Assembly (NCBI GenBank): GCA_945949525.1
Contig: CAMFES010000006.1
Location: forward strand, 1-47,168
Direction of reading: 5' to 3'
DNA length: 47,168 nt
Origin: an uncultured Veillonellaceae bacterium
GTDB taxonomy: Bacteria > Bacillota > Negativicutes > Selenomonadales > Selenomonadaceae
The notes under the pieces were generated by a model. It did no database searches, was not told where the DNA came from, and saw only the letters and a program-made list of their open reading frames with translations. Numbering within the stretch: position 1 is the first letter of the stretch; each line of letters starts with the position of its first letter. Position numbers and translations under genes: made by a program. Below, in pieces: positions 2,990-6,714 of the stretch.

Positions 2990-3018
2990 ATTCTATAATA
3001 TTTTTGATTGTATGTCAA
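2990..3018 (-). promoter_or_regulatory. Strong promoter of orphan small RNA 2
   Basis: TTGACA (3018-3013), a 17-bp spacer and TAGAAT (2995-2990) form a near-consensus sigma-A promoter on the minus strand. Its -35 overlaps the stop codon of the PemK/MazF-like gene, so it can only serve the small RNA that follows. Confidence 0.75.
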
Positions 3019-3767
3019 TACAAAGTATAAAATTTGGAAATTTTCTCATCTATCTTGAGCATTGTTTCAGAAGAAACCTTTAAGTCATATAGCGAACTGT
3101 ACTTATTTGTTGGATTCAATACACGCATTTTGCTTACAGTTCTTATTTGATTGATAATGCCATAGCTACCTAACTTTAAATGTTTTAGTTCTGTTTCTGT
3201 TTTGGATAACAGTTTCATATTTTTATCCAAATCAAGTAGTTTTTTGCTTATCATTTCAGACGCATGATTGTCATTTGGATTAATTTGTTCTGCAATTTCA
3301 TTTATTGTTTCGATTTCGGCTTTTAGTGACGTATATAACGCATTATATTTGCTTTCAATGCGGTGATATATTTCTCTACCTAAGTAAATATTTGAAGGAT
3401 GAATGTTTTCTTTTAGTTTTGTGTCTTTGATAGAACTTAATGGTAAGACTGCAATAAGGGGATTGCTTTTATTACTATCGTGCAAAACTATAGCATAATG
3501 TTTGCCGCCTAATTCTGCACCTGGATTAAAACCAAAATTAACGGATACAATATTTCTTCTTTTGTATGAAGGCAGGCAGGCTATATTAAAATGGTTCTCG
3601 TTTTTTATGATATTTTTATAATCACGTAGCCAGTAGTATATTAGAGCAGCTTTTTTATAGTCTGACTCATTATTAATCATATCCTTCATGAAACAATTAA
3701 TGTCATTGGTAAGAGTATCTGTAGCTTTGAGTAAGTCTAATTTGTTGTTTGTATCTTTGAAATCCAT
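3015..3767 (-). CDS. PemK/MazF-like toxin family protein
   Basis: A 250-residue protein. Residues about 70-120 read RRNIVSVNFGFNPGAELGGKHYAIVLHDSNKS and AVLPLSSIKD, the beta-barrel signature of PemK/MazF-like endoribonucleases (arginine entry, GxNxGxExGGxHYAV, then PLSS). The flanking regions are helical and charged, with a predicted coiled coil at about 150-200, so this is a longer phage-type relative. No small antitoxin gene adjoins it. It starts 26 bp after the DinD-like gene with AGGAAG upstream and probably shares that transcript. The ncRNA directly downstream could be its partner, because ToxN-type toxins share this fold, but the order would be reversed. Confidence 0.65.
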   Translation of the reverse strand: MDFKDTNNKLDLLKATDTLTNDINCFMKDMINNESDYKKAALIYYWLRDYKNIIKNENHFNIACLPSYKRRNIVSVNFGFNPGAELGGKHYAIVLHDSNKSNPLIAVLPLSSIKDTKLKENIHPSNIYLGREIYHRIESKYNALYTSLKAEIETINEIAEQINPNDNHASEMISKKLLDLDKNMKLLSKTETELKHLKLGSYGIINQIRTVSKMRVLNPTNKYSSLYDLKVSSETMLKIDEKISKFYTLY

Positions 3768-3793: not shown

Positions 3794-3830
3794 TCATTCC
3801 TTACGGTATTTCTTTGGGGTGAATTTCTGC
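3794..3830 (-). repeat. Tail repeat copy A (end of DinD-like gene)
   Basis: First of three near-identical copies of a roughly 37-bp sequence that encodes QKFTPKKYRKE and a stop codon on the minus strand. Here it forms the C-terminus of the DinD-like protein. The other copies are at 4720-4756 and 5927-5963. Confidence 0.85.
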
Positions 3831-4642
3831 TCCAGCTGGGATGCTTTCTTTGGGGTTGGAAGGTCCTCAGGCATGGTGCCACCAAGGTCCTTTATTGTCT
3901 GCCGGACAGCTGCACCGACGTCAAAATGGGTTTTGTTGGCAGCTTCTTTGCCTTTGGTATTTTCACGGCGCAGCTTCGCCTCGGTTTGAGTGGCTCGGAA
4001 CAGGTTGGCAGCCAGCTCCTCATGCCCCATATAATCTAGGATGTTCTGACTTTTCTTTAGATGTTTATGAGCGTGAATATCTTGGCGAGTCATTCCTCCA
4101 TACAGACCTTTATAGCCAGCATTTTGAAATATGGCGTAATCTTTAGGCTGAATCACTCCAGCATCATGAGCAGCATCTGCCAAAGACTTATTGTGTTTCC
4201 TCATTTCCTGCCTAATGGCCAGTCGTTTATTATCATCGTTTAATTTATCATAATTATCAATAAGTTCCTGCTGGCGCGTCTTAACAGCAAAATAGGTTTG
4301 AGCGAGAGCAATAGCCCGTTTGCGCGGATCGCCATTCATAGCGATAAGATAGCAGGCATAGCGAGATAGGTGATAATTTTCAATTTCGCGTCCTGCACCA
4401 CCGCCGATTGTGACCATTTCGTGCACTTGCACGAAATGGTCCGAAGCCTTGTTATCAGTGGCTTCACAGGCATTTATCGCTTTATCAATTACTTTTTTGA
4501 AAAAGCGATATTCATTATATTCCAGCAAAGGAATTAGCTCTCTTGCTGACCAATATTCCTCCCCATATTCATTTATATGTTTTATGGAATCGAATAGAGA
4601 TGCACCTGGCTGTATATCTTCATCATCAAAAAAGAAAAACAT
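3794..4642 (-). CDS. dinD: DinD-like DNA-damage-inducible protein (BRO/KilA-type N-terminus)
   Basis: The 282-residue protein has the DinD signature near the N-terminus (LFDSIKHINEYGEEYWSARELIPLLEYNEYRFF), then NYHLSRYACYLIAMNGDPRKRAIALAQTYFAVKTR. This matches E. coli DinD, an SOS-induced protein reported to inhibit RecA-driven strand exchange. The C-terminal ten residues, KFTPKKYRKE, are shared with the phage repressor and are not a DinD feature I know. AAGGAG lies eight bases before the ATG at 4642. I found no clear LexA box upstream. Its neighbours are the toxin-like gene downstream and the AbiF module upstream. Confidence 0.85.
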   Translation of the reverse strand: MFFFFDDEDIQPGASLFDSIKHINEYGEEYWSARELIPLLEYNEYRFFKKVIDKAINACEATDNKASDHFVQVHEMVTIGGGAGREIENYHLSRYACYLIAMNGDPRKRAIALAQTYFAVKTRQQELIDNYDKLNDDNKRLAIRQEMRKHNKSLADAAHDAGVIQPKDYAIFQNAGYKGLYGGMTRQDIHAHKHLKKSQNILDYMGHEELAANLFRATQTEAKLRRENTKGKEAANKTHFDVGAAVRQTIKDLGGTMPEDLPTPKKASQLEQKFTPKKYRKE

Positions 4643-4719
4643 AATAATCGCTCCTTGCTTAACCAGAAAGCCCCAGCAGGTTTTTGTGCTGTCGTCTTGC
4701 CTTTACAGTTCTCTGGCAG

Positions 4720-4756
4720 TCATTCCTTCCGGTACTTCTTCGGGGTGAATTTATGC
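4720..4756 (-). repeat. Tail repeat copy B (stranded gene end)
   Basis: On the minus strand this reads RKHKFTPKKYRKE-stop, but an in-frame stop lies just upstream and there is no start codon. It is therefore the isolated 3' end of a gene, lying between the AbiF stop and the DinD start. It differs from the repressor copy (5927-5963) at two of the first 37 bases. Confidence 0.85.
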
Positions 4757-4804
4757 TTGCGTGATACCTGTTATGGCACTGGAGTATCACAATTATCTTA
4801 CAAT

Positions 4805-5776
4805 CTAGACAGTTGTGGTAGCTTTTATTCTAGTTAGAATATCCATTGGCAACTTGGTTATGCAAGCGTATTCTTCAAATACTTCAACATTATCGCTGAT
4901 GTAGCAAAACAAATCATTTAAGAAAAAGTCTTTTAAGTTCTTGTCGGGCAATACGGCATAGATAAATAGTATCACTGCATACAAATCCTTAGTGCCTAAT
5001 GTTTTATAAATATCATTGGTTTTAGTAAGTTCCATTGGCAACAGTGAAGTGATTGAAATTTCTTTTAGGTTGTCCAAGTAATTGCCCTGAAAGGTTACAA
5101 ATTTCAGATTATGTGCAATCTGATTCCTGCACTTGCGTAGGAGATTTAATCCAGAAGTCAAAAATTCAACTTTTTTAGGATAATCAAGTCTTTGGCTTGG
5201 TAGTAGTTCGTTAACTATATAATCTTTCTCCCTTGCCTTCAGAGCTCGGAACAGGTTTATGCTGTTACTGAAAGATATATTCTTAAATAGTATCCACGGA
5301 GGAATGTGATTGTGATTGTTTTTATAATGAGCAGTAGGCATTGGTGTGTGGGGGCTATCTATGACAGCGTGGATTTCTTTCAGTGTATTCAAGAAATTTA
5401 TGTGTTTTATAGCATAATTATAATTTTTGAGATGTAAATACTCTTTATGATTAACTCCAAAATTCTTAGCAATTATGTAGCTCAGAGTGTTTTTGAAGAA
5501 ATTTTCAATCATAATCATCCTCGAAAAAAGTATGTTTTGAAAATCCTTATCAAAGATACGCAATTTACACAATAATTCAATGGTAATTCCCCGGCGGTAT
5601 CGTTCGTTTATCATCAAAGAATCCTTATATCCATTGACTAAATCATAGTAGGTAAATACTTTTAAAGCATGTATTGCGAAATCATTGTCTTTAATGATTA
5701 GTCCATAATCATGTACAAGATGATTTACCATCTCTTGGTATTCACAAAATGGCCTATCGTATCTCTGTGGTGCCAT
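4805..5776 (-). CDS. abiF: Abi_2 (AbiD/AbiF) abortive-infection protein with HEPN motif
   Basis: This 323-residue protein has the Abi_2 features: an N-terminal YDLVNGYKDSL region, ENFFKNTLSYIIA at about 91-103, HIPPWILFKNISF at about 157-169 and CRNQIAHN at about 216-223. RNQIAH is the R-x4-H HEPN ribonuclease motif (Arg217, His222). AbiF proteins act as RNA-controlled toxins and phage-defence factors and have been proposed as the ancestors of Cas13. AGGAGG precedes the ATG at 5776. A separate promoter, short RNA and terminator lie immediately upstream, as expected for the family. The frame is complete, so the toxin is probably active. Confidence 0.88.
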   Translation of the reverse strand: MAPQRYDRPFCEYQEMVNHLVHDYGLIIKDNDFAIHALKVFTYYDLVNGYKDSLMINERYRRGITIELLCKLRIFDKDFQNILFSRMIMIENFFKNTLSYIIAKNFGVNHKEYLHLKNYNYAIKHINFLNTLKEIHAVIDSPHTPMPTAHYKNNHNHIPPWILFKNISFSNSINLFRALKAREKDYIVNELLPSQRLDYPKKVEFLTSGLNLLRKCRNQIAHNLKFVTFQGNYLDNLKEISITSLLPMELTKTNDIYKTLGTKDLYAVILFIYAVLPDKNLKDFFLNDLFCYISDNVEVFEEYACITKLPMDILTRIKATTTV

Positions 5777-5794
5777 ATACTCCTCCTGAAAAAA

Positions 5795-5861
5795 TTAAAA
5801 ACCCCACTGCTATAAGCAATGGGGTTCGCGACTAGCGCCGAACGCTACAGTCCTTTCATCT
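5795..5861 (-). ncRNA. AbiF-associated small RNA
   Basis: The predicted transcript of about 65 nt contains a hairpin TAGCG-UUCGG-CGCTA (5850-5836) and then a terminator (ACCCCA to UGGGGU with an internal UGC-UUAUA-GCA tip, 5825-5801) and a T-rich tract. Its 3' end is about 20 bp before the abiF start codon, so most transcripts should end before the gene. This matches the conserved ncRNA known upstream of abiF genes (abiF RNA motif), shown in one family to act as an RNA antitoxin. The function here is inferred from that family. Confidence 0.78.
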
Positions 5862-5867
5862 ACATTG

Positions 5868-5896
5868 ATTATAGCATAATTATATCTTTTGCACAA
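5868..5896 (-). promoter_or_regulatory. Promoter of the AbiF-associated RNA
   Basis: TTGTGC (5896-5891), a 17-bp spacer and TATAAT (5873-5868) on the minus strand. The segment TGCTATAATCAATG around the -10 is, at 13 of 14 bases, the reverse complement of the terminator tip of the same RNA. Confidence 0.65.
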
Positions 5897-5926
5897 CGAT
5901 TGATTGTTATTAATGCCTATTGTCTA

Positions 5927-5963
5927 TCATTCCTTTCGGTACTTCTTCGGGGTGAATTTCTGC
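5927..5963 (-). repeat. Tail repeat copy C (end of repressor gene)
   Basis: This copy encodes QKFTPKKYRKE-stop as the C-terminus of the repressor. It is probably the original copy, since every temperate phage of this layout needs a repressor, whereas the AbiF and DinD genes are optional cargo. Confidence 0.85.
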
Positions 5964-6349
5964 TTGGCAACGCGCTTTGCCAGCGTCATGGCCTGGGTGA
6001 GGGAGGACTTTAGGAGTTCTAGGTCTTCGCCATCGGGAGTGAGGTTGCCGCCAAAGGCAGCGGAGGTGTCGAGTTCTGCCAGCATTTTCTCAAGGTCCTT
6101 GGCGATGTCGCGCTCATCGCGCGGGGTGAGGGGTGGGAGGTCTGGGCGAGTGTCAGGTTCTTTTTCGTTTCCAAGAAGATAGTCTGTTGATACATTGAAA
6201 TAATTGGATATAGCTATTAGCGCATCTTTGTCAGGAGTGCGTCTTCCTTGTTCGTACATACCTATTGTACTAGGAGATACACCCAATATTTTTCCTAATT
6301 CTGCCTGGGTTAAACCTTTGGACTTGCGTAGTTTTTTTAATGTTTCCAT
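5927..6349 (-). CDS. Phage repressor, XRE family (cI type)
   Basis: A 140-residue protein with an N-terminal helix-turn-helix (LRKSKGLTQAELGKILGVSPSTIGMYEQGRRTPDKDALIAISNYFNVSTDYLLG) and a charged C-terminal part without an S24 protease domain. Loss of the self-cleavage domain together with an ImmA gene in the same operon suggests induction by ImmA cleavage. The ATG at 6349 is preferred over the longer open frame because AGGAGT lies upstream and the helix-turn-helix starts at once. It diverges from the Cro-like gene across the operator cluster and heads the leftward lysogeny operon. Confidence 0.88.
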   Translation of the reverse strand: METLKKLRKSKGLTQAELGKILGVSPSTIGMYEQGRRTPDKDALIAISNYFNVSTDYLLGNEKEPDTRPDLPPLTPRDERDIAKDLEKMLAELDTSAAFGGNLTPDGEDLELLKSSLTQAMTLAKRVAKQKFTPKKYRKE

Positions 6350-6368
6350 AACAACGGCACTCCTTTTT

Positions 6369-6482
6369 ACACAATAAGTGTTATTCATATAAAATATTTT
6401 ATCACAAAATGTGTAAAAAATGTTGACTACACACGAAATGTGTGATATTATCATAATGCAAAGTAAATCACACAAAATGTGT
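6369..6482. promoter_or_regulatory. Lysogeny switch region with four operators
   Basis: Four 13-bp sites of the form ACAC-N5-GTGT lie at 6369-6381, 6402-6414 (first base T), 6431-6443 and 6470-6482. The third fills the spacer of the rightward promoter and the fourth covers its initial transcribed region. The first two lie where a leftward repressor promoter must be; TTTACA and a TTTTAT/TATAT segment are candidates there. The sites fit binding by the repressor and the Cro-like protein. Confidence 0.8.
6423..6451 (+). promoter_or_regulatory. Rightward early promoter (cro promoter)
   Basis: TTGACT at 6423-6428, a 17-bp spacer and TATTAT at 6446-6451. An ACAC-N5-GTGT operator sits wholly inside the spacer, so a bound repressor would block RNA polymerase. 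Confidence 0.78.
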
Positions 6483-6501
6483 ATAATGGGAGGTGATATG
6501 A

Positions 6502-6714
6502 GTGAACTGTTTGGAAAAGCTTCGTAAGAGCGAAAAGTTAACTCAAGCCGAGATGGCGCAAACGCTTGGAGTATCCGCTTCTTTTTATAGCAAGATAGAG
6601 TTGGGGATTAGAAAGCCAAGCAGGGATTTTTTGATAAGAATCAAAGAAAATTTCCCTATGTGTGATATGAATATTTTTTTTGCAGAATTACTACACATAA
6701 CGTGTGATAATTAG
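6502..6714 (+). CDS. Cro-like XRE-family regulator
   Basis: A 70-residue protein that is almost only a helix-turn-helix (LRKSEKLTQAEMAQTLGVSASFYSKIELGIRKPSRDFLIRIKENF), closely similar in its first helix to the repressor (LRKSKGLTQAELG). Both probably read the same operators. The GTG start at 6502 follows AGGTG with correct spacing; the ATG at 6498 is in another frame. The gene is divergent from the repressor and first in the rightward early operon. A fifth operator lies in its last codons. Confidence 0.82.
   Translation: MNCLEKLRKSEKLTQAEMAQTLGVSASFYSKIELGIRKPSRDFLIRIKENFPMCDMNIFFAELLHITCDN
6693..6705. promoter_or_regulatory. Fifth ACAC-N5-GTGT operator inside the end of cro
   Basis: ACACATAACGTGT has the same half-sites and five-base spacer as the four intergenic operators. 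It is about 210 bp from the nearest of them, a distance suited to DNA looping or roadblock repression. Confidence 0.6.

Follow-up and report, generated by a model that had tools for sequence, protein, structure and literature searches.

The promoter of a predicted small RNA encoded ahead of a phage-borne abiF gene was found to be complementary, over its -10 region, to the terminator that ends the same RNA, and the leaders of related abiF genes demonstrated that this complementarity is kept by covariation. The DNA analyzed here (the window) comprises 47,168 nucleotides, bases 1-47168 of contig 6 of a 2.1-Mb draft genome that is 82.6% complete. We tentatively read its abiF unit as a toxin-RNA antitoxin pair with a promoter-embedded antiterminator, in which transcripts arriving from upstream would favor the toxin message, and we give this reading somewhat less than an even chance of being right. 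An AbiF with an upstream RNA is of an already known kind. The complement of a promoter lying within a terminator, with matched changes over distant phages, offers a concrete and testable switch; if the switch exists, the outcome at one and the same terminator would depend on the start site of the RNA. On how AbiF expression is set, the discussion of PMC12373285 speculates on a riboswitch-like response without giving a mechanism. No description of a promoter-complementary terminator was found in the literature searched, although the search wording was incomplete and the main AbiF-Cas13 paper lay outside it, and an earlier description of this RNA class or of the feature is possible.

The abiF unit and its phage setting

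The features of the unit are as follows, all on the minus strand.

4805..5776, minus: abiF gene (Abi_2 HEPN protein, 323 aa, ATG start), an ORF with Pfam, PADLOC and PHROG matches
5111..5128, minus: RNQIAH (R217-x4-H222) HEPN motif, residues 217-222 of the translation
5780..5787, minus: ribosome-binding site AGGAGGAG of abiF, from the sequence
5791..5861, minus: predicted small RNA of ~70 nt, its start at ~5861 inferred from the -10 box
5799..5827, minus: intrinsic terminator hairpin of 13 pairs with a U-rich tail at 5790-5798, from terminator scan and leader comparison
5808..5821, minus: segment t (CATTGCTTATAGCA), running from the upper 5' arm of the terminator through its loop into the first bases of the 3' arm, complementary to the unit's own promoter
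5830..5853, minus: antitoxin-like hairpin of the small RNA with a bulged stem, a structure kept in 7 loci
5863..5876, minus: segment p (TGCTATAATCAATG), the -10 region, wholly upstream of the predicted RNA start and complementary to t
5868..5896, minus: small-RNA promoter TTGTGC-N17-TATAAT, with the -10 at 5868-5873 and the -35 at 5891-5896, from the sequence
5927..6475, minus: cI-like HTH repressor gene upstream of the abiF leader (Pfam HTH_3, 2.8e-19; PHROG transcriptional regulator)

The intact Abi_2 protein with an RNQIAH motif, reported in a preliminary description of this DNA, was confirmed. The 323-aa protein matched the Pfam Abi_2 profile with an E value of 3.6e-25 (89.8 bits against a curated cut-off of 25.6), PADLOC AbiD (5.7e-35) and PHROG 2158, "abortive infection resistance protein" (7e-50). 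The Abi_2 profile matched 13 of 13 aligned AbiF sequences, in which R217, N218, and H222 are conserved at 90% or more. A PDB search with the single sequence returned nothing convincing (best E value, 0.095), and a search with the 13-sequence profile returned one related solved chain, 8vz6 (1e-12). An AlphaFold2 model of the protein (mean pLDDT, 90.3) had the same entry, "PbAbiF dimer bound to ncRNA," as its sole PDB match at E ≤ 0.001 (E value, 8e-7; TM 0.64/0.69); PbAbiF, which is bound to AbiFr in that structure, thus shares the fold of the model at 17% sequence identity. With a profile match above the cut-off, the R-x4-H motif and a modeled AbiF fold, which are the marks of the AbiD/F (Abi_2) family, the protein is an AbiF and likely cuts RNA. 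It is presumably toxic, and the unit presumably provides anti-phage defense. Relatives in genome contigs were found with an alignment query and none with a plain sequence query. The nearest, with 55% identity, comes from a genome within the same family and is placed as in Selenomonas sp. F0473.

The genes for portal, major head, minor head, tail sheath, tape measure, and baseplate proteins in the window indicate that it is myophage DNA, in agreement with the earlier view that this AbiF is phage-borne. The abiF gene is flanked by the same-strand cI-like repressor gene on one side and by BRO-N, PemK/MazF-like, IrrE-like peptidase, and serine recombinase genes on the other, which looks like a lysogeny region. 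The repressor gene lies 30 nt before the -35 of the small RNA, and no fold was predicted in the gap between them. The protein encoded at 3015-3767 combines a short PemK/MazF-like stretch with a strong match to PHROG 1412, "antitoxin mazE-like" (9.6e-45), and is possibly a second toxin-antitoxin element near abiF. The BRO-N protein at 3794-4642 strongly matches the PADLOC candidate PDC-S13 (3.7e-115), and the product of the IrrE/CapP-like peptidase gene at 1900-2388 is possibly a repressor-cleaving protease of the lysogeny region. At L009/L050 (G014, same genus), the repressor upstream of abiF has nearly the same C-terminus as that encoded at window 5927-6182; the AbiF there shares 24% identity with that of the window and the RNA is different, as if the abiF-RNA cassette had been exchanged behind a fixed repressor gene.

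A separate promoter for an RNA ahead of abiF had also been described, and its place is supported by relatives, which carry a TTGACA-like and TATAAT-like pair at the corresponding position. As a bare consensus match the promoter is ordinary: a generic promoter scan, which gave 8 promoters against 7.3 in shuffles, did not list it, its -35 matching 3 of 6 bases. The terminator at 5799-5827 was the only one listed within 4600-6600 (shuffle mean, 1.0), and in our judgment its 13 pairs and its position make it more than a chance match. The RNA that it would end, about 65 nt in the earlier estimate, has a predicted length of ~70 nt. The folding energy of the leader was better than that of 200 of 200 shuffles (z -3.53), mostly owing to the terminator, and the 40-nt hairpin part of the window on its own was not unusual in energy (z -0.03).

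The hairpin was instead recognized by comparison. Its 9-pair bulged stem was traced in seven loci (the window, L003, L034, L036, L038, L039, and L046, the last a fragment), whose AbiF proteins are 33-56% identical to that of the window, and 98.4% of its cells were paired, with four pairs changed on both sides. The covariation score, the paired share and the number of doubly changed cells were each reached by 0 of 500 shuffles, the number of doubly changed pairs by 33 of 500 and the number of pair types by 210 of 500. Since six relatives share the hairpin with compensatory changes, the predicted small RNA is conserved, with a hairpin of another build than that of the Rfam family RF03085. When 16 leader RNAs were aligned together, no consensus structure emerged, only the window subtype (7 loci) giving one; thus, the RNAs of more distant relatives may be differently built.

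Type III toxin-antitoxin systems of the ToxIN kind consist of an RNA antitoxin gene, a terminator and an RNase toxin gene, with tandem RNA repeats and a ToxN fold. Judged by sequence, the window has the same layout, an RNA gene with its own predicted promoter and terminator directly upstream of the toxin gene. Unlike the ToxIN kind, no tandem RNA repeats were seen in the window leader, and the toxin is a HEPN protein rather than one of the ToxN fold.

The reading that we favor builds on this layout. Transcription from the internal promoter would yield a short structured RNA stopping at the terminator, and this RNA may bind and restrain AbiF as an antitoxin, by analogy with RCd22 and the RNA of PbAbiF. 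RNA begun at this promoter lacks p; therefore, the terminator would form and the toxin message would be absent. RNA entering from the upstream repressor gene would contain p, which could pair with t once t leaves the polymerase, and a p:t helix lasting past the passage of the polymerase over the U-tract would allow abiF to be transcribed. The internal promoter would then set the dose of antitoxin, and traffic from the repressor gene would set that of the toxin.

Complementarity of promoter and terminator across loci

The p and t segments of the window pair at 13 of 14 positions. This feature, missed in the preliminary description, was first noticed by side-by-side reading of leaders. Each promoter was then scored against its own and other leaders, and the mean over 38 non-redundant loci was 20.3 for own leaders and 15.3 for others; none of 36 swaps reached the score of the window, 27.0. 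Near-duplicates were left out, as were L008, L048, L071, L073, L076, L077, L029, and L030, where the promoter-RNA unit was not found where expected.

When a wide region was used as the target, 20 of 36 loci in the first set were individually significant and one of 15 in the second (mean z 0.67). A narrow target, the terminator arm and loop, was defined after this result and with it in view. Own pairs in the narrow test scored 19.86 against 12.61 for permuted pairs in the first set (36 loci) and 15.75 against 11.69 in the second (14 loci), a difference reached in 0 of 20,000 permutations in each. Fewer than 5% of swaps were as good in 27 of the 36 and 7 of the 14 loci, respectively. Both tests left out L083, L105, L100, L102, L104, and L082 (fragments or duplicates); from the narrow test L080, which has no terminator, and the 17 loci bearing the RF03085 motif string were dropped as well. 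L106 received a wrong promoter assignment and was counted as a miss.

The hypothesis came from the first set and the second set was looked at before scoring, and the clean test is the third set, which was scored once under rules fixed beforehand. It was drawn from 12 hits chosen before their DNA was seen plus L115, with similarity to earlier loci of at most 0.73; L117 and L124, which had no terminator by the rule, were left out, and L115 was kept out of the permutation. The 10 loci scored 17.35 for own pairs against 12.22 for permuted pairs (0 of 20,000 permutations), and 6 of 10 were above all swaps. As the loci are related, the counts do not number separate events; relatedness also raises the scores of permuted pairs, a bias against the finding.

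Over all 60 scored loci, p:t exceeded 95% of the locus's own shuffled terminators in 37; judged by swaps, 20 of the 60 were not individually significant. The relation is complementarity and not direct repetition, with a mean score of 18.48 against 11.20 for direct repeats, which were at background. Leaders with the RF03085 motif string were likewise at background in the wide test (mean z 0.12 for 2 loci and 0.00 for 15 loci), with one of the 17 individually significant. Where the -10 box departs from TATAAT inside the helix (19 departures in 36 loci), t matched the departure in 15 cases, formed a G.U pair in one and fitted the consensus in three, a count that favors matches in that the helices were chosen for pairing. 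For example, the -10 box of L121 (Streptococcus phage IPP16) is TAGAAT with ATTCTA in t, that of L016 is TACAAT with ATTGT, and that of L069 is TAAGAT with TCTTA. On average, 87% of the p side lies upstream of the predicted RNA start (38 loci), as does all of p in the window.

Leaders with this complementarity were found in Veillonella, Megasphaera, Peptoniphilus, and Lachnospiraceae genomes and in Streptococcus and Lactobacillus phages. This distribution does not support the earlier suggestion of a possible specificity for phages of this host.

Folding, upstream transcription and competing explanations

In attenuators of the trp and T-box kind, alternative pairing operates and a second sequence competes for the 5' arm of the terminator. 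The p segment is such a second sequence, able to pair with the terminator 5' arm and kept by covariation, as expected of an antiterminator. Unlike in those attenuators, the -10 region of an internal promoter would be the competitor in the window, and the choice would depend on the start of transcription.

Folding predictions were made for the RNA at successive lengths. When window RNA transcribed from the repressor gene ends at 5808-5805, p:t is the favored fold (P 0.96), and with the 3' arm transcribed, the terminator becomes more stable than p:t by 8.6 kcal/mol. Similarly, p:t is favored before the 3' arm in 32 of 38 loci, and at full length the terminator is better in 37 of 38 and p:t in one. 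Since the terminator is more stable at full length, antitermination would have to be kinetic, and the switch appears possible only under such control, which is the weakest step of our reading. The barrier to the terminator along a heuristic path had a median of 11.1 kcal/mol (34 loci); for the window, the heuristic value depends on the helix allowed, being 5.0 kcal/mol with a 12-nt helix and 15.8 kcal/mol with the full 14-nt helix. The p segment does not reach the outer GC pairs of the terminator, which might still cause termination.

The leading alternative is an ordinary AbiF-RNA pair as in the phages phi027 and phiC2, with one internal promoter, most transcripts ending at the terminator, occasional read-through that makes the toxin, an RNA that neutralizes it and a complementarity without regulatory role. 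The greater stability of the terminator fits this account, as does the anatomy shared with RCd22-abiFCd and abiD1 (PMC12373285, PMC2661086), and AbiF units can evidently lack the complementarity, given the 20 of 60 units that are not individually significant and the RF03085-string leaders at background. What it leaves unexplained is the joint change of p and t over many loci in three sets, and we regard it as credible but rather doubtful.

A promoter-embedded antiterminator would also bear on the genes upstream. If p is present only in RNA from further upstream, loci with the complementarity should have a close same-strand gene. An ORF of 80 codons or more ending on the same strand within 70 nt of the -35 was present in 22 of 34 complementary loci (defined by f<0.05) and 6 of 31 others (P 0.0004), the 70-nt limit having been chosen after the distances were seen; within 250 nt, the counts were 25 of 34 and 16 of 31 (P 0.078). 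These counts cover 15 of 17 RF03085-string loci and 50 of 51 others, the rest being short of upstream DNA, and exclude the third set. A hand-made list gave 26 of 32 complementary loci and 15 of 33 others at the 250-nt limit (P 0.004), with the ORF overlapping the -35 in 8 of 32; this list included L032 (f 0.07) and L114 (f 0.06) and was without L078, L052, L019, and L113 (f below 0.05). The neighbor rule assigns L109 an opposite-strand neighbor, and its record annotates an abutting same-strand gene.

In 16 loci (L001, L034, L036, L046/L075, L062, L066, L068, L069, L070, L072, L074, L107, L108, L109, L111, and L114), the gene abutting the abiF leader encodes a protein of 123-151 aa, and in several its stop codon overlaps the -35. 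Nearly all of these proteins have a GD pair near the C-terminus; five of five scanned matched phrog_27728, and five of six resembled Pfam FlgT_C below the cut-off. This phrog_27728 protein may be a third part of the unit.

Alternatively, p and its inverted copy at t could be DNA operators, with a dimeric regulator, either the repressor or the conserved upstream protein, controlling the promoter through a DNA loop. The copies of the inverted repeat are some 45-70 bp apart, as would be expected of looping operators, the upstream gene in the window encodes a repressor, and the excess of G.U pairs predicted by pairing at the RNA level was not significant in a wobble test (17 G.U against 9 A.C; P 0.084). 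However, the sequence of the repeat varies by locus while its pairing is kept, and a regulator and both of its sites would have to change together repeatedly, which makes this explanation unlikely.

Two further explanations give the complementarity a role for the small RNA itself, and we consider both very improbable. In the first, t would act as a primitive guide: the AbiF-bound RNA would pair with transcripts crossing its own p, which is absent from the unit's own short RNA, and the pairing would pull the RNA off AbiF or re-arrange it, activating the toxin. If this were true, the unit would sense outside transcription, such as that of prophage induction or of a related superinfecting phage, by RNA-RNA recognition, and would represent a step between an RNA antitoxin and the guide of Cas13, of which AbiF is the proposed ancestor (PMC12737573, PMC12373285). 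In the second, the terminated RNA would form an R-loop with the opened promoter DNA and repress its own synthesis. By the usual extent of promoter melting in the open complex, p lies near the melted stretch in many loci; however, p is upstream of the -10 box except for its first base in L110, L112, and L116, and t is largely locked in a strong stem of the finished RNA. Least probable of all is selection for an antisense promoter in the terminator: the opposite strand of window t reads TGCTATAAGCAATG, which is -10-like, but the promoter scan lists none on the plus strand there, and no more than two bases of the -10 hexamer fall within p in L034, L066, L001, L050, L110, L112, and L116.

Known AbiF systems and RNA families

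The window unit resembles AbiFCd-RCd22 of the Clostridioides difficile phages phi027 and phiC2 in its phage-borne Abi_2 protein with RNQxAH and in the order of promoter, structured RNA, intrinsic terminator, ribosome-binding site and abiF (PMC12373285). RCd22 neutralizes AbiFCd, and its terminator limits abiF expression; it has two RF03085 motifs and a full-length form of 132 nt and lies in the lysis module (PMC12373285). In contrast, the window has one hairpin, no RF03085 match, a predicted length of ~70 nt and a position behind a repressor gene. A 13-nt match in phiC2 between the promoter spacer and a stretch after the RCd22 terminator, seen by eye, was left uncounted, both being A/T-rich.

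In lactococcal AbiD1 (pIL105), as in the window, a terminator just before the gene ends a short RNA and read-through gives the toxin message; the abiD1 promoter yields a 50-nt terminated RNA and little full-length message (PMC2661086). Unlike the window leader, that of pIL105 contains the RF03085-like string CCACGCCTCT, although the model had no match there at E up to 0.1, and its annotated upstream gene is an opposite-strand transposase, compared with the same-strand repressor of the window. The complementarity score of pIL105 (L115) is uninformative, with an annotated start inside the leader and a doubtful promoter assignment. The annotated abiD1 start, at L115:819, falls inside the leader hairpin and is probably wrong.

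A match to the Rfam abiF model had been proposed as a check on the window RNA. RF03085 gave no match at its gathering threshold over the window, none at E up to 10 over 5700-6000 (301 bases) and none in the unit's own genome at E up to 0.001 with stricter filters, and its motif string is absent from the window leader. The RNA is thus not a detectable member of RF03085. The miss does not refute an RNA, because relatives keep another hairpin and the model overlooks many leaders in which its motif string is present, finding 5 of 18 such leaders at E up to 0.1, two of them above the cut-off. Two units of the same genus scored 36.4 and 34.6 bits against the cut-off of 37. Matches below the cut-off (34.6-36.4 bits) near AbiF-like genes were located at L029:164-200, L030:1501-1537, L084:163-199, L089:2096-2132, and L091:2135-2171, and genuine members thus seem to be excluded by the Rfam cut-off of 37.

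The atoC RNA model RF01733 had a sub-threshold match at window 5797-5875 (24.1 bits against 50; E value, 0.032). This identity was rejected as probable chance, that model also having a -10-like start and a terminator-like end.

If our reading is true, RF03085 covers only part of the AbiF-associated RNAs, and searches with that model would miss units such as that of the window. Leader types with shared strings of their own were also recognized by eye, one in L004, L078, and L079, another in L005, L019, and L047, and a third in L010, L014, L018, and L024, which suggests several classes of AbiF RNA besides RF03085.
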